Shown here in pieces: positions 37,804 to 45,423 of a DNA stretch of 64,000 nucleotides. The position numbers were made by a program, and so were the translations under genes. The stretch comes from Lachnospiraceae bacterium. Its GTDB lineage: Bacteria; Bacillota; Clostridia; Lachnospirales; Lachnospiraceae. The stretch covers positions 1 to 64,000 of the forward strand of contig JAILLN010000004.1 of assembly GCA_024693135.1 (NCBI GenBank), written 5' to 3'. Numbering within the stretch: the first letter of the stretch is position 1; every line of letters begins with the position of its first letter. The notes under the pieces are model-generated. The model ran no database searches. It saw nothing but the letters and a program-made list of their open reading frames with translations, and was not told the DNA's origin.

Positions 37804-38631
37804 TCAGAGGATCCGCTCCTTCTGCCCGATGAAGGTACAGACCCGGCTGCTGTCGTGGTATCGTATGTCGTCCGCTATGATGTCATATACCTTCCCCATT
37901 TCGATCGTCTTCATGGGAATGCCGTTGACCTCATAGCGCCTGGCCGCTCCGGCCTCCCTGAACTTCTCCTCGAAGGGATAGATCGTGACGAACAGATCCT
38001 TATCCAGCGCGCGGACATGCATGCAATAGGTCCGCTTCGAGGTGCGGCCCTCTGCATCGGTGTAGTCTGCAGTGAAGTTTTTCAGATAACGGTAACTGAC
38101 CCCGATCATTTCCTCCACATAATGCACGAAGGTAAAGGAATGCTGGCACTCCACATCAATGAATACATTTTTGGCATTATGCTCTCTGCAGAAGGAAAAA
38201 GGACTGCAGCTTCCAAAGGAGCTGCGGTTGTCCATGGAGGAGAGCTCCTCTGCTCCCGCTCCCCATACCGCAAAGGAATAGATGGGATGCGCTGTCCTGA
38301 GGAAGTCCTCCCGCTTCAGGGCGCATTTGCCGATGCTGCCGGTGCGGCAGGGGGTCTTCTTGATGTCAAAGGGAATGCCCTTGCAAAAGTCCCAGTTGAA
38401 GGTGGGGATCAACAGTGTGCCGGAAGGGGTGATGATCTGCTGCACGGCATCGATCAGTACATTCATGTCCGTATCGTCCCCATGCTCGATGCAGGAATAG
38501 ACCAGGGTCTTCACATCCGAGGAGATCCAGACGGAATCTCCCTCGGAAAGGCCGAAATGCTTGGGTATGTCTTTCAGTTTTACGTATTGATCTTCCAAAT
38601 ATCCATCCTGTCTTATGCTGCGGGAGGACAT
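37804..38631 (-). CDS. AAC(3)-family N-acetyltransferase-like protein
   Basis: A 275-residue protein of the antibiotic AAC(3) fold (GCN5-unrelated), with SSDVKTLVYSCIEHGDDTDM, TPSGTLLIPTFNWDF and FIDVECQHSFTFVHYVEEMI. In glycan loci these proteins acylate amino sugars rather than aminoglycoside drugs. Context with DUF4910, MaoC and ACP supports an acyl transfer to a surface sugar or peptide rather than resistance. The start at 38631 has AAAGGGAG only 2 nt away, a tight spacing. It is preceded by a 22-bp direct repeat and no clear promoter. Confidence 0.85.
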   Translation of the reverse strand: MSSRSIRQDGYLEDQYVKLKDIPKHFGLSEGDSVWISSDVKTLVYSCIEHGDDTDMNVLIDAVQQIITPSGTLLIPTFNWDFCKGIPFDIKKTPCRTGSIGKCALKREDFLRTAHPIYSFAVWGAGAEELSSMDNRSSFGSCSPFSFCREHNAKNVFIDVECQHSFTFVHYVEEMIGVSYRYLKNFTADYTDAEGRTSKRTYCMHVRALDKDLFVTIYPFEEKFREAGAARRYEVNGIPMKTIEMGKVYDIIADDIRYHDSSRVCTFIGQKERIL

Positions 38632-38736: not shown

Positions 38737-40570
<1,834 letters not shown>

Positions 40571-40666: not shown

Positions 40667-41566
40667 TTAGCTTCGTCCCCGGGATTTGATCCGGGCATTG
40701 GCTCCCGCCGTGATCTCGGTGATCTCCTGGGTGATGGAAGCCTGCCTCTCGCGGTTGTATTGGATCCTCAGGTCGTGGAGCATGTCATTGGCGCTGTCAT
40801 TGGCTACCTGCATGGCAAGCATCCTGCTATTCTGCTCTGCGCAGAAGGATTCGATGAGCGTACTGAAGACAAACCCGCGGATATAGCTGGGCACCACGGT
40901 ATCGATCACGTCCTTCGGCGTGGGCTGGAGAATGAATTCCTCCTGCGGCACCTCGGCCATCAGCTGGGGCTCCAGATGGGGCAGCGTCTCCCTCAAGGGA
41001 AGCAGCTTCGTCACCCGCACCTCCTCCTGGATGGGATTCTTCATGGCGCTGTATACCACAAACATCTCGTCGATCCGGTCATTGCGGTAAAGCTCTAAGA
41101 TCCAGAATGCGATATGCCTCGCCATGTCCCTGGTGGGGCTTACGGCATCTTCATGAAAATATTTCTCGATGGGGACATGCCTCTTGGCGAAGTGATGGCG
41201 CCCTACCTCACCGATGACGAAGAGGACCGTATTGGCCTTTCCCTCCATGAGGCGCTCTGTCTCCATGAGCACATTGTAATTATATGCGCCGGCAAGCCCC
41301 TTATCCGAGGTGATCACAAGAAAGCCCGTGGTCTTCTGCTCCTCCGGCTTGGAATCGTCCCTGAGGAAGGGATGCTCTACATGGGGTATATGCCGGAGCA
41401 TCCGTTCGATCAGATTCTGTATGCCGTAAAAATATGGGCGGATCGCCTCAAGATCACGCTTGGCCCTGGCCAGCTTCGTAGAAGAGATCATAAACATGGC
41501 GTTTGTGATCTTCTGCGTGCTCTCGATGCTGGTGATCCTTTCCTTGATTTCCTGCGTATGTGCCAT
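40667..41566 (-). CDS. atpG: ATP synthase gamma subunit
   Basis: A 299-residue gamma subunit that forms the rotating shaft. N-terminal ITSIESTQKITNAMFMISST and C-terminal MLHDLRIQYNRERQASITQE form the coiled coil, and VITSDKGLAGAYNYNVL is the central motif. It begins 6 bp after atpA. Length is slightly above 285-290, with normal motifs. Confidence 0.96.
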   Translation of the reverse strand: MAHTQEIKERITSIESTQKITNAMFMISSTKLARAKRDLEAIRPYFYGIQNLIERMLRHIPHVEHPFLRDDSKPEEQKTTGFLVITSDKGLAGAYNYNVLMETERLMEGKANTVLFVIGEVGRHHFAKRHVPIEKYFHEDAVSPTRDMARHIAFWILELYRNDRIDEMFVVYSAMKNPIQEEVRVTKLLPLRETLPHLEPQLMAEVPQEEFILQPTPKDVIDTVVPSYIRGFVFSTLIESFCAEQNSRMLAMQVANDSANDMLHDLRIQYNRERQASITQEITEITAGANARIKSRGRS

Positions 41567-41572
41567 CTGTCC

Positions 41573-43330
41573 TTACTTCTTTTCGAGCCAGCTTTCCTTG
41601 AACTCTCCCACTGCCTGAATGATCATTTCCCTTAAGTCATCCGGCAGCTCCTTCCTGGAGGAAAGCCGGGAGAGCAGGGCTGACTGCTTATCGTGCATAT
41701 ATAAGAGCATCTCCACCTGGAAGGTCTTGACTGCCTCTAAGGGAATATCCTTGAAGAGCTTGGCGCTTGCCACCACCAGGGTCACCACCTGCTCCGCCAT
41801 GGAAAGAGGACGGTACAGGGGCTGCCGGAGGATCTGCATCAGGGCCTTGCCGTTTTGCAGCAGATCCTTGGTCGCGCTGTCCAGGTCGGAGGAAAACTGG
41901 GTAAATACCTCCATTTCCCGGAACTGGGCCAGGTCGATCCGGATGGAGCCGGAGGCCTTCTTCATGGCCTTGCACTGAGCCGCACCGCCCACACGGGAGA
42001 CAGAAAGCCCCACATTCACCGCAGGACGCTGCCCCTCAAAGAAGAGGTCGCTCTCCAAAAAGATCTGCCCGTCGGTGATGGATATGACATTCGTGGGGAT
42101 ATAGGAGGATACGTCCCCCTCCTGGGTCTCGATGATGGGAAGCGCCGTAATGGATCCTCCCCCGGCCTCATCGCTTAAGCGGCTGGAGCGCTCCAAAAGC
42201 CTGGAATGCAGATAGAATACATCCCCCGGATATGCCTCCCTGCCCGGCGGACGGCCGAGGAGAAGGGAGATCTCCCGGTAGGCTACCGCATGCTTGCTGA
42301 GGTCGTCGTAGACGATCAGCACATCCCTGCCCCGGTGCATGAAATATTCCGCTATGGCAGTGCCCGCATAGGGGGCGATATACTGAAGGGGCGCCGCATC
42401 GCTGGCGGTGGAATTCACCACGATGGTATAGCTCATGGCATTGTTGCGCTTCAGGGTCTCCACCAGCTTGGCAATGGTGGAATCCTTCTGGCCGATGGCC
42501 ACATAGATGCAGATCACGTCCTTATTCTTCTGGTTGATGATGGTATCTACGGCGATGGAGGTCTTGCCCGTCTGCCGGTCGCCGATAATGAGCTCCCTCT
42601 GTCCCCGGCCGATGGGGAACATGCTGTCGATAGCCAGGATCCCCGTCTCCAGCGGAACAGATACGGACTTCCGGTCTATGATGCCGGGAGCCGGCTCCTC
42701 GATGGGCCTCCATACCGAGGCAAGGATCTCTCCCTCTCCGTCCAAGGGCGCTCCCAGGGAATTAATGACCCGGCCCAGAAGCTCCTCGCCCACATTGATC
42801 CCGGCCTCTGCCAGGGTACGGGCCACGCGGCTTCCTTCCTTGACGGTCTCCTCTCCCCCGAAGAGGATGCAGCCGATGCGGTCGGCTTCCACATTCATGA
42901 CCATGCCCTTGGCGCCTGCCTCAAAGAGCACCACCTCGCCATAGGCCGCATGGTCGATGCCGTCGATATAGGCGATGCCGTCGCCGACCCAGGTCACATA
43001 GCCGATCTCCCGGCCGGAGGCGGCAAGGTCGAAGTCCTCGATCTGCTCCTTCAGGACAGAGACCACTTCCCGGATGCTGCCTGCTCCCCGCTCATGGTTA
43101 TTGCTTTCCAAAAGCTCCTGCAGCTGTCCGGTCCGGCCCTTCACGCTCCAGTCATATTCATCCGTACCCACGCGCAGGATGAAGCCGCCCATGAGGGACT
43201 CGTCCTGAGCCGTCTCGAGGCTTCCCGCCCGGGGGCCGTATTTCTTTGCAATAAAAGAGCGGATGCCCTCCATCTGCTCCTCTGTGGGCGGCACCGTGTA
43301 GATCAGTGATGCCTTTATCTCCTCTGTCAT
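41573..43330 (-). CDS. atpA: ATP synthase alpha subunit with N-terminal delta C-terminal domain fusion
   Basis: The product is 585 residues, against about 500-505 for ordinary alpha. From SIREVVSVLKEQIEDF (near residue 84) it is a normal alpha, with Walker A GDRQTGKTSIAVDTI, IYDDLSKHAVAYR and ALPIIETQEGDVSSYIPTNV. Residues 1-75 are not alpha: LIYTVPPTEEQMEGIRSFI, then DESLMGGFILRVG and SVKGRTGQLQELLES, match the C-terminal domain of delta/OSCP (E. coli delta has DKSVMAGVIIRAG and SVRGRLERLADVLQS). No separate atpH exists in the operon and the delta N-terminal domain is absent. The ATG overlaps atpF by 4 bp with GAGGCCAGGC upstream; an internal start cannot be excluded. Identity of both parts is clear from motifs. 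Confidence 0.93.
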   Translation of the reverse strand: MTEEIKASLIYTVPPTEEQMEGIRSFIAKKYGPRAGSLETAQDESLMGGFILRVGTDEYDWSVKGRTGQLQELLESNNHERGAGSIREVVSVLKEQIEDFDLAASGREIGYVTWVGDGIAYIDGIDHAAYGEVVLFEAGAKGMVMNVEADRIGCILFGGEETVKEGSRVARTLAEAGINVGEELLGRVINSLGAPLDGEGEILASVWRPIEEPAPGIIDRKSVSVPLETGILAIDSMFPIGRGQRELIIGDRQTGKTSIAVDTIINQKNKDVICIYVAIGQKDSTIAKLVETLKRNNAMSYTIVVNSTASDAAPLQYIAPYAGTAIAEYFMHRGRDVLIVYDDLSKHAVAYREISLLLGRPPGREAYPGDVFYLHSRLLERSSRLSDEAGGGSITALPIIETQEGDVSSYIPTNVISITDGQIFLESDLFFEGQRPAVNVGLSVSRVGGAAQCKAMKKASGSIRIDLAQFREMEVFTQFSSDLDSATKDLLQNGKALMQILRQPLYRPLSMAEQVVTLVVASAKLFKDIPLEAVKTFQVEMLLYMHDKQSALLSRLSSRKELPDDLREMIIQAVGEFKESWLEKK

Positions 43331-43827
43331 GCCTGGCCTCCCGAGGCTGTCTTTTTCGTTTCCTTAAGGAAGCGGTCGTACAGCCTGGCATTGTCTGCCT
43401 CGCTGCTTGATGCGGCGATCTTGCCTGCGGCAGAAAGCACCAGCTGCTCGATCTGCTTCTCCTGCTCCTTCATGGCAAGCATATTGTCATGCTCCGCCTG
43501 GGCCTTCGCCTTGCGGATGATGTCCTCTGCCCTCTTGCCGGCATCCTCTACGATACGGCTGTATTCCGCATTCGCCTTCTGATCCGCGTCGTGGATGATC
43601 TTTTCCCTTTCCTCAGAGATCCCCTTCAGCTTTTCCTCATACTCCGCACGGATGCCCTCCGCCTCCTCTGCCTTTTTGGAAGCGCTCCGGTAATCCGCCT
43701 CGATCTCCTCTTTTCTCTTCTTCAGGATGTCGTCCACCCTTCCGAAGAGGAATTTCTTCATCAGGAAATAAAGGATCAGCAGGTTTATGATCATGCAGAT
43801 AAAATTAAACCAGTCAAAGCTTAACAT
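43327..43827 (-). CDS. atpF: ATP synthase b subunit
   Basis: A 166-residue b subunit, the peripheral stalk. One N-terminal helix (about residues 5-26, WFNFICMIINLLILYFLM) is followed by a long charged coiled coil. The C-terminus ends LYDRFLKETKKTASGGQA, where b normally binds the delta C-terminal domain; here that domain would be on the alpha protein. It overlaps atpA by 4 bp in the slot where atpH normally begins. A normal length argues against a b-delta fusion. Confidence 0.94.
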   Translation of the reverse strand: MLSFDWFNFICMIINLLILYFLMKKFLFGRVDDILKKRKEEIEADYRSASKKAEEAEGIRAEYEEKLKGISEEREKIIHDADQKANAEYSRIVEDAGKRAEDIIRKAKAQAEHDNMLAMKEQEKQIEQLVLSAAGKIAASSSEADNARLYDRFLKETKKTASGGQA

Positions 43828-43845: not shown

Positions 43846-44067
43846 TTATTTCAGGAAGAAGATGATCAGGATGCCGATCAGAAGGCCGTAGATCGCCGTG
43901 GCCTCTGCCAGTGCGCAGCCGAGCAGCAATATCTTCATGATCTTGCCGTCTGCCTCCGGCTGTCTCGCCACAGCATCCGCCGCCTTGCTGGTAGCCAGTC
44001 CGATGCCGATGCCCGCTCCGATGCCCGTGAATGCCGCAATGGCGGCTCCGATTGCTGTAAGATTCAT
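43846..44067 (-). CDS. atpE: ATP synthase c subunit
   Basis: A 73-residue c subunit with two membrane helices and a polar loop VARQPEADGK (33-42). The ion-carrying acid is Glu55 in CALAEATAIYGLL. Compared with Na+-type c subunits such as that of Ilyobacter tartaricus, the first-helix Gln is Ile22 and the Ser after Glu is Ala56, while Thr57 and Tyr60 remain, so the ligand set is incomplete and H+ is the more likely ion. Upstream AAGGAGG gives a strong ribosome site. Confidence 0.95.
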   Translation of the reverse strand: MNLTAIGAAIAAFTGIGAGIGIGLATSKAADAVARQPEADGKIMKILLLGCALAEATAIYGLLIGILIIFFLK

Positions 44068-44144: not shown

Positions 44145-44831
44145 TTATTCTATGGCTTCCTTCAGATACAGGGAAGTCAGGAATACAAACACATAGGCCT
44201 GGATCAGCCCGTCAAAGAGGTCAAAGTACAGGCAGAGCGCCGCCGGAAGCACCACCGGCACTGCCATCTTGACCAGCTCCATGATCACAAAGGCCGCAAA
44301 AACATTTCCAAAAAGCCGCATGCAAAGGGACAGCGGCTTGATAAAGAGCTCCAGTACGTTGATGGGCGCCACCAGGGCCACAGGCTCTGCAAAGGACTTG
44401 AAGAAGCCCTTCCCTCCCTTGGCCAGGAAGGATGCCGCCTCGATGAGGACGATGCTCATGACGGCCAGAGCCACGGTCACCCGCAGATCCTTCGTCGGCG
44501 GGCTGACGCTGAATATGCCGAGGATATTGGCTACGCCGATGTAGATCAGGACCGAGCAGAGATAGGTCACATACCTCTCGCCCTCTTCTCCCACCATGCC
44601 GCCTACAAGCCCCCTGAGCCAGGTCACGATGGTCTCTGCCACGATCTGCCTTTTGCCCGGATTCCTTGTCTTCATGTCCTTCGTCAGGAAGAGGGACAGT
44701 AGAAAAAGTCCCAGGATGATGAACCAGGTAGTGACCACAGACTCCTTGACCTCAAGCCCGCCAAATACCGGAATGGTAAATGCCGTCTTGATCTCCATCT
44801 CCTCCTGGAGACGTTCCGCTAGATTTCCCAT
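44145..44831 (-). CDS. atpB: ATP synthase a subunit
   Basis: A 228-residue membrane subunit that forms the ion half-channels. The essential Arg is in SLCMRLFGNVFAAFVIMEL, and the C-terminal helix LIQAYVFVFLTSLYLKEAIE carries the conserved Gln. About five or six helices. No atpI lies directly upstream. AGAGGCG precedes the ATG. It heads the operon behind the promoter at 44951-44978. Confidence 0.95.
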   Translation of the reverse strand: MGNLAERLQEEMEIKTAFTIPVFGGLEVKESVVTTWFIILGLFLLSLFLTKDMKTRNPGKRQIVAETIVTWLRGLVGGMVGEEGERYVTYLCSVLIYIGVANILGIFSVSPPTKDLRVTVALAVMSIVLIEAASFLAKGGKGFFKSFAEPVALVAPINVLELFIKPLSLCMRLFGNVFAAFVIMELVKMAVPVVLPAALCLYFDLFDGLIQAYVFVFLTSLYLKEAIE

Positions 44832-45015: not shown

Positions 45016-45423
45016 TTATTTTTCTCCGTCCCCGCGCTCTTCCGCTTCATCCCAACTCTCCTCCGGTATGTCCCCTGAAGCTTCCGCGATGAAGTGGCTT
45101 TGCTCTCTGCGTTCTCCTGAGGCTTCCGTGATGGAGCCGCTTTGCTCTCTGCGCTCCTCTGAGGCTTCCGTGATGGAGCGGCTTTGGTCTCCCTGCTCCT
45201 CTGAGACAGGGACGCGGCTTAAGAGATTCCTGGCACTGGTATAGATCAGAACCGATCCGGCCACCACGAAAAGCGCCATGAAGGCCATCATCACGATCTT
45301 TGAGGTGCCGGTCCTCGCCATCACATCCGGGAAGATCTGGTAATCAATATAAAACAGATAGAACCCGATGAGCAGGCGGATGGTGCTTACTGCCCGGGGC
45401 GGAAGGCCTTTTCCGTTTCCCAT
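45016..45423 (-). CDS. Small membrane protein with 14-residue repeats, unknown
   Basis: A 135-residue protein with two hydrophobic segments (about 13-30 and 43-62) and an acidic C-terminal half. Residues 75-116 are three imperfect 14-residue repeats (EEQGDQSRSITEAS, EERREQSGSITEAS, GERREQSHFIAEAS) encoded by 42-bp repeats at 45076-45201. I do not recognise the family. It follows the second permease by 3 bp and precedes the terminator, so it is the last gene of the sugar operon rather than an atpI. The tail may be disordered and vary in length between strains. Confidence 0.7.
   Translation of the reverse strand: MGNGKGLPPRAVSTIRLLIGFYLFYIDYQIFPDVMARTGTSKIVMMAFMALFVVAGSVLIYTSARNLLSRVPVSEEQGDQSRSITEASEERREQSGSITEASGERREQSHFIAEASGDIPEESWDEAEERGDGEK
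45076..45201 (-). repeat. Three 42-bp tandem repeats inside a coding region
   Basis: The core GAGGCTTCCGTGATGGAG recurs every 42 bp with small changes and encodes the 14-residue repeats of the small membrane protein. The repeat length is a multiple of three, so copy number can vary without frameshift. Confidence 0.85.

Follow-up and report, generated by a model that had tools for sequence, protein, structure and literature searches.

Fused and missing δ subunits in described ATP synthases

An ATP synthase with part of its δ subunit fused to α was described in 2025, when Ueno et al. built a δΔN-α version of the Bacillus PS3 FoF1 and determined its structure (PDB 9jc1; PMC12229609). In this enzyme, residues 2-104 of δ were removed and the remaining C-terminal domain was placed via a short linker on the N-terminus of α, with no separate δ present. 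The authors consider that the N-terminal domain of δ, located on the threefold axis, restricts the enzyme to one stalk; its removal, combined with a C-terminal domain on each α, allowed as many as three b2 stalks, with three a-subunits, to assemble. Relative to the wild type, the engineered enzyme contained 2.2 times as much a and 1.8 times as much b, and its H+/ATP ratio was 5.8 instead of 3.0. The three-stalk form was extremely rare in cryo-EM, for which the authors blame sample preparation, and proton pumping was lower than in the wild type. Natural δΔN-α fusions are named in the same paper, i.e., in Acidaminococcus fermentans and in the UniProt entries G4Q3K6 and A0A1I2C5T3 (PMC12229609).

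The AtpA analysed here belongs to this kind already described, and the statement in the initial annotation that no α-δ fusion was known is outdated, because one has been built and solved and natural cases have been reported. A. fermentans is a member of the Negativicutes and thus of another lineage than the bacterium studied here. As described in PMC12229609, the named proteins resemble AtpA in carrying a δ without its N-domain on α. In the open-licence literature, neither later papers on natural δ-α fusions nor a paper linking the fusion to Lachnospiraceae were found; likewise, no paper found there describes how widely the fusion is spread, its full-length intermediates or its repeated changes of state, which are reported below.

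In the b-δ fusion of mycobacteria and Gordonia, the separate δ is also lost and merged with a neighbour in the stator, but δ is attached to b and not to α (PMC5709465; model NF009961/PRK13428), an arrangement that would not triple the docks for b. The N-ATPases and the Dictyoglomi enzymes without δ share the absence of atpH from their operons; however, the N-ATPase operons are described as having another gene order and an additional atpR (PMC4154653), while the order here is the ordinary B-E-F-A-G-D-C. Neither this gene order nor the α models fit an N-ATPase; AtpA scores below the cut-off of the alternate-F1F0 model TIGR03324 (608 versus 750.5 bits) and above that of TIGR00962. A survey from 2017 lists Clostridia operons without δ (PMC5709465), and it is our guess that these may be unrecognised fused operons.

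The fused AtpA and its operon

The window, i.e., the whole analysed stretch of 64,000 nucleotides of a Lachnospiraceae contig, contains an F-type operon with ordinary gene order and single genes for a and b. In this operon, the C-terminal domain of δ and the α subunit are encoded by a single open reading frame of 585 codons with an ATG start:

44145..44831, minus strand: atpB, a subunit, 228 aa (PF00119)
43846..44067, minus strand: atpE, c subunit, 73 aa (PF00137)
43327..43827, minus strand: atpF, b subunit, 166 aa (PF00430), 4-base overlap with the start of the fusion
41573..43330, minus strand: fused AtpA, δ C-terminal domain and α, 585 aa (open reading frame, domain matches, end-to-end alignment with 9jc1_I)
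43112..43324, minus strand: δ/OSCP C-terminal domain, residues 3-73 of AtpA (PF00213 101-171/172, profile of fused N-termini, structure search)
43073..43111, minus strand: linker between the δ domain and α, residues 74-86 (from the end of the PF00213 match to the start of the TIGR00962 match)
41591..43072, minus strand: α subunit proper, residues 87-580 (TIGR00962, 741.6 bits)
40667..41566, minus strand: atpG, gamma subunit, 299 aa (PF00231)
39150..40541, minus strand: atpD, beta subunit, 463 aa (open reading frame; PF00006 match at 39507-40148)
38737..39153, minus strand: atpC, epsilon subunit, 138 aa (PF02823 and PF00401)

The initial annotation had placed a δ C-terminal domain at the N-terminus of α and had noted the lack of atpH between atpF and atpA, and both points are confirmed. 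By hmmscan, residues 3-73 match positions 101-171 of the 172 positions of PF00213 (OSCP) with an E-value of 5.2e-10, above the gathering score, followed by ATP-synt_ab_N, ATP-synt_ab and ATP-synt_ab_C. The ordinary F-type α model TIGR00962 covers residues 87-580 far above its cut-off (484.45 bits). The N-terminal domain of δ is missing, as the PF00213 match does not begin before profile position 101 and the end of atpF runs into the start codon; the atpF stop and the fusion start share an ATGA, which leaves no space for atpH. The sequence GGGAGG directly upstream of the ATG provides the fusion with its own Shine-Dalgarno element. As judged from its sequence, the N-terminal part of AtpA is thus a δ of which just the C-terminal domain, predicted to bind b, is left and which precedes α in the same polypeptide.

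The c subunit, inspected by eye, does not show the glutamine that serves as a Na+ ligand, and H+ is assumed to be the coupling ion. Upstream of atpB, a 135-aa ORF (45016-45423, minus strand) has no Pfam match at an E-value of 0.001; its C-terminal half contains a roughly 14-residue imperfect repeat. The ORF that follows atpC (37804-38631, minus strand) has an opening similar to that of the ORF after atpC in three other loci (L046, L050 and L051).

When the whole assembly (67 contigs, 87.8% complete) was searched with PF00213 in six frames, the fused frame was the sole match, with no second OSCP site. Hence, a separate δ with N- and C-terminal domains, which is typical for canonical F-type enzymes, was not detected in this assembly, and the search for an atpH elsewhere in the genome agrees with the initial annotation; at 87.8% completeness, an atpH may have been missed, judging by this genome alone. 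In a second genome of the genus (G032; three contigs, 99% complete), the single OSCP match also lies within a fused frame. PF00006 was found at six places in the assembly, including α and beta of the fused operon. A pair on another contig (C61), with frames of 607 and 462, suggests the A and B subunits of a V-type enzyme, and two further frames are taken to be FliI and Rho by their length. The fused AtpA is therefore the only F-type α found in this 88%-complete assembly.

Structural comparison with the engineered enzyme

The AlphaFold2 model of residues 1-114 has a mean pLDDT of 69.5, with about 85 for residues 1-60. In a structure search with this model, the first 46 PDB matches were all ATP synthase entries (best E-value 1.7e-5), and the chains that could be identified among them by a profile search were δ, OSCP or b-δ subunits or belonged to 9jc1. 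A profile built from 13 fused N-termini matches both chain I of 9jc1 (E-value 5e-11) and the δ chain 5t4o_L (E-value 6.6e-8). For the complete 585-aa protein, the alignment was shallow and the resulting model is of low confidence (mean pLDDT 63.2); in a Foldseek search with it, chains I, K and J of 9jc1 ranked first to third, with a TM-score of 0.46 and an rmsd of 19.5. At the sequence level, AtpA aligns end to end with 9jc1_I (residues 10-579 with 8-574 of the chain), which among the best 60 of 213 PDB sequences is the only one whose match extends into the first 60 residues of AtpA.

Parts and their order agree between the engineered and the natural protein, and the spacing between the conserved Y of the δ motif YDWS and a conserved G of α is 51 residues in AtpA and 49 in 9jc1, with a median of 50 over 106 fused loci, copies included. 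They differ in that 9jc1 is a designed enzyme without the C-terminal domain of epsilon, while the operon here retains an epsilon with its helix domain. Four fusions from two families (L178, L179, L182 and L199; f66 and f105), which contain only the C-terminal domain of δ and belong to another α clade, have a spacing of 88-100 instead of about 50 residues.

The stop-to-stop frames of the neighbouring b genes have medians of 169 aa beside fusions with the C-terminal domain only (CTD-only), 168 aa beside full-length fusions and 169 aa beside α genes with a separate δ. A C-terminal tail of the LYDEFL type is common to many b genes of the large α clade (see below), irrespective of the adjoining α type, and is absent beside fused genes of the other clade (e.g., L178, L180 and L182). 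Because the b genes are of the same length and many share this tail, b probably docks in the usual way.

Distribution and selection

The OSCP-α fusion is present in 32 of the 37 genomes of the genus. Thirty of these 37 have the OSCP match in a frame that is 570 aa or longer, though three of the matched stretches are interrupted by a stop; the two remaining fused genomes have frames of only 129 aa, on a contig of 3930 bases, and 330 aa. A separate δ alone is found in four genomes, and one genome has no match. Two of the 32 fused genomes (G003 and G014) retain most of the δ N-domain, and eight of the 37 combine the fusion with a canonical atpH. Within the genus, ATP synthase loci of the canonical type, each with its own atpH, are L012, L016-L022 and L024-L027.

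The initial annotation had pointed to AtpA of other Lachnospiraceae for comparison, and the fusion indeed recurs there: among 299 genomes from 298 genera of the family, 55 or more carry it in frames of 570 aa or longer that contain no stop. Of these, 20 have nearly the whole δ (frames of 669-758 aa) and 35, including the one described here, are CTD-only. These counts are lower bounds, as the re-search covered 120 genomes with weak or second matches out of the 250 that matched, and they include three genomes (G353, G240 and G220) with matches just below the curated cut-off. The Walker motif of α is present in all 40 fusion frames fetched from the family, and Pseudobutyrivibrio sp. MD2005 (L152) represents a full δ-α fusion with a frame of 672 aa. 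With the profile of fused N-termini, frames of this kind, without a stop and 570 aa or longer, were detected in at least 38 of 391 genomes that were searched from the class; they belong to 17 other families, and 27 of them were read. Beyond the class, five of 299 genomes searched, from three families, show such frames (G756, G799, G900, G1005 and G815).

A possible triple fusion of b, the δ C-terminal domain and α occurs in a frame of 787 aa (L094:3629-5989, plus strand, genome G128). If real, it would place one b on every α; alternatively, an error of a single base in the stretch from atpF to a TTG start could have produced it, and this is the single genome of its genus that was examined.

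Between close relatives within the genus, purifying selection acts on the δ part. In five pairs with a δ-part identity of at least 0.8, pN/pS of the δ part is 0.015-0.155, and it reaches 0.51 in more distant pairs (0.015-0.51 over the nine pairs without the AtpA described here). Two pairs that include this AtpA give 0.49-0.53, values that say little because dS is saturated. In 10 of the 11 pairs, pN/pS is higher in the δ part than in α. With 67 contigs and a completeness of 88%, a sequencing or assembly error that joined remnants of atpH to atpA, or an N-terminus that is not translated, might be considered, but the architecture is shared by 32 of the 37 genus members and recurs in many other families, the δ part has a low pN/pS in close pairs, and the fusion start has its own Shine-Dalgarno element. 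The recurrence in many assemblies and the selection on the δ part reject an artefact, the probability of which is negligible.

Evolution of the fusion

An α-core tree of 109 rows was calculated from an alignment without the δ columns, using a mixture model and a quick search, and drawn with midpoint rooting; 39 rows, which were near-copies or removed by thinning, and five of the 37 new loci from the class were left out. Two other alignments omit single loci, A3 leaving out L160 and A5 both L153 and L160. The tree contains two clades separated by a fully supported branch. The first combines 19 rows with a separate δ and 12 CTD-only rows, while the second, large clade comprises 40 CTD-only fusions, 23 full-length fusions, 14 separate deltas and one row with the b/δ-CTD/α arrangement. 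Two very divergent CTD-only fusions on long branches, L091 (G131) and L116 (G280), fall outside the main fused clade.

Fused and separate states change seven times on this tree, and the AU test rejects a common clade for the 76 fused rows (p = 4e-11), although the tree comes from a quick search, contains the long branches of L091 and L116, and the group was named by its trait. The result is compatible with one origin followed by several re-splittings. Within the large clade, the CTD-only rows require 11 changes, and their grouping into a single clade is rejected (p = 1.7e-5), as is a single clade of the full-length fusions (p = 2.6e-131). The scattering of the latter fits intermediates, without indicating a direction. 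Together, the changes and the rejected groupings indicate repeated gain or loss of the fusion and probably also repeated loss of the δ N-domain.

In an earlier LG+G4 tree, calculated without the short L023, the duplicate L001 and the loci L006, L037, L054 and L067, in which no α was found, rows with a separate δ were nested deep among fused rows, which would suggest re-splitting. In the denser mixture-model tree, some of the separate-δ rows are located near the base of the large clade. The mixture-model tree is preferred, although any order of the states read from it is tentative.

In many genomes, the reading frame of a separate δ continues into that of α but for one intervening stop (TAA, TAG or TGA), giving open frames of about 690, as read in L185, L186, L187, L188, L189 and L195. 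The loss of this one stop would yield a full-length fusion. The ratio of N-domain to C-domain identity has a median of 0.72 in 33 full-length fusions and of 0.86 in 31 separate deltas, from pairs that are not independent; 34 of the 45 separate-δ loci passed the motif filter, and nine full-length fusions and three separate deltas were dropped as near-copies or odd. This points to a mild relaxation of the N-domain after fusion. An N-domain that became useless at once is not supported, as its motifs stay conserved.

Stalk number and proton stoichiometry

The question of stoichiometry that the initial annotation raised, with a δ domain on every α, is real. It had envisaged three δ domains around one b dimer, cleavage or asymmetric use, and had omitted several b dimers, as can assemble in the engineered enzyme. 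We propose, with a probability of roughly 0.6, that each α brings its own b2 dock and that one to three stalks can assemble. All three α subunits of an F1 would carry a dock, and without a δ N-domain on the axis the limit to one stalk would be gone. One to three b2 stalks, each with its own a-subunit, could then form, and more protons would be moved per ATP, which would allow ATP to be made at a low proton motive force or more protons to be pumped per ATP. Since AtpA has the parts of 9jc1, nearly its spacing and probably the usual b dock, each α should offer a docking site for a stalk; that more than one site is occupied is what we infer, multi-stalk assembly having been shown for the engineered enzyme. 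On the other side, three-stalk particles of the engineered enzyme were extremely rare and its proton pumping was reduced, the operon contains single a and b genes, so that additional copies of the subunits would have to come from expression, and 20 of the at least 55 fused family genomes keep the δ N-domain on α, which means that fusion and multiple stalks need not coincide.

The main competing explanation is an enzyme with one b2 dimer and one a-subunit, in which two of the three δ domains are idle or cap the crown of F1, and the fusion mainly serves to fix the stator without the δ N-terminal domain. The lone a and b genes of normal size are in line with it, and so is the existence of full-length fusions, whose three N-domains would compete for the axis and could not dock together, so that idle domains would have to be tolerated. 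Nevertheless, this explanation is less likely than the first, because the engineered enzyme, equal in layout and nearly so in spacing, gains extra stalks spontaneously (PMC12229609) and because the CTD-only forms are not one clade, which fits a repeated removal of the one-stalk limit.

One stalk per F1 could also result from an asymmetric supply, if an internal start or proteolysis produced plain α next to about one fused α. The initial annotation had considered an internal start near the junction, and AtpA does contain a plausible one, a GTG near residue 89 with a fair predicted Shine-Dalgarno element (energy -5.6). A start at the same distance exists in L099 of the same genus (-5.3), comparable starts are located elsewhere in the junction of L041 and L051, and a junction start with an energy of -5 or lower is present in four of 18 genes of the genus, at varying places, and in 16 of 98 fused genes. 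However, over these 98 genes, from which 13 named loci were excluded as copies along with genes lacking the motif and in which a few near-copies remain, no conserved start was found near the junction. In 31 of them, the junction is free of any in-frame ATG, GTG or TTG. The density of start codons is 0.036 per codon at the junction and 0.053 inside α, and the fraction with a Shine-Dalgarno-like sequence is 0.14 and 0.16, respectively. As junction starts are neither conserved nor enriched, there is no sign of a second, unfused α, and an asymmetric supply is improbable.

Assembly of one to three stalks on the fused α subunits is thus the preferred explanation. We see even odds that it provides a gear change in H+/ATP through the number of stalks and not through the size of the c-ring. 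The ATP synthase of a gut bacterium shares the layout that engineers built, so that a natural multi-stalk version becomes testable and the design idea of 2025 can be examined in wild enzymes. The full-length δ-α relatives represent natural intermediates in which the δ N-domain can be probed as the limiter of stalk number. If the proposal is true, it would offer a natural explanation for how ATP is synthesised, or more protons are pumped per ATP, at a low proton motive force.
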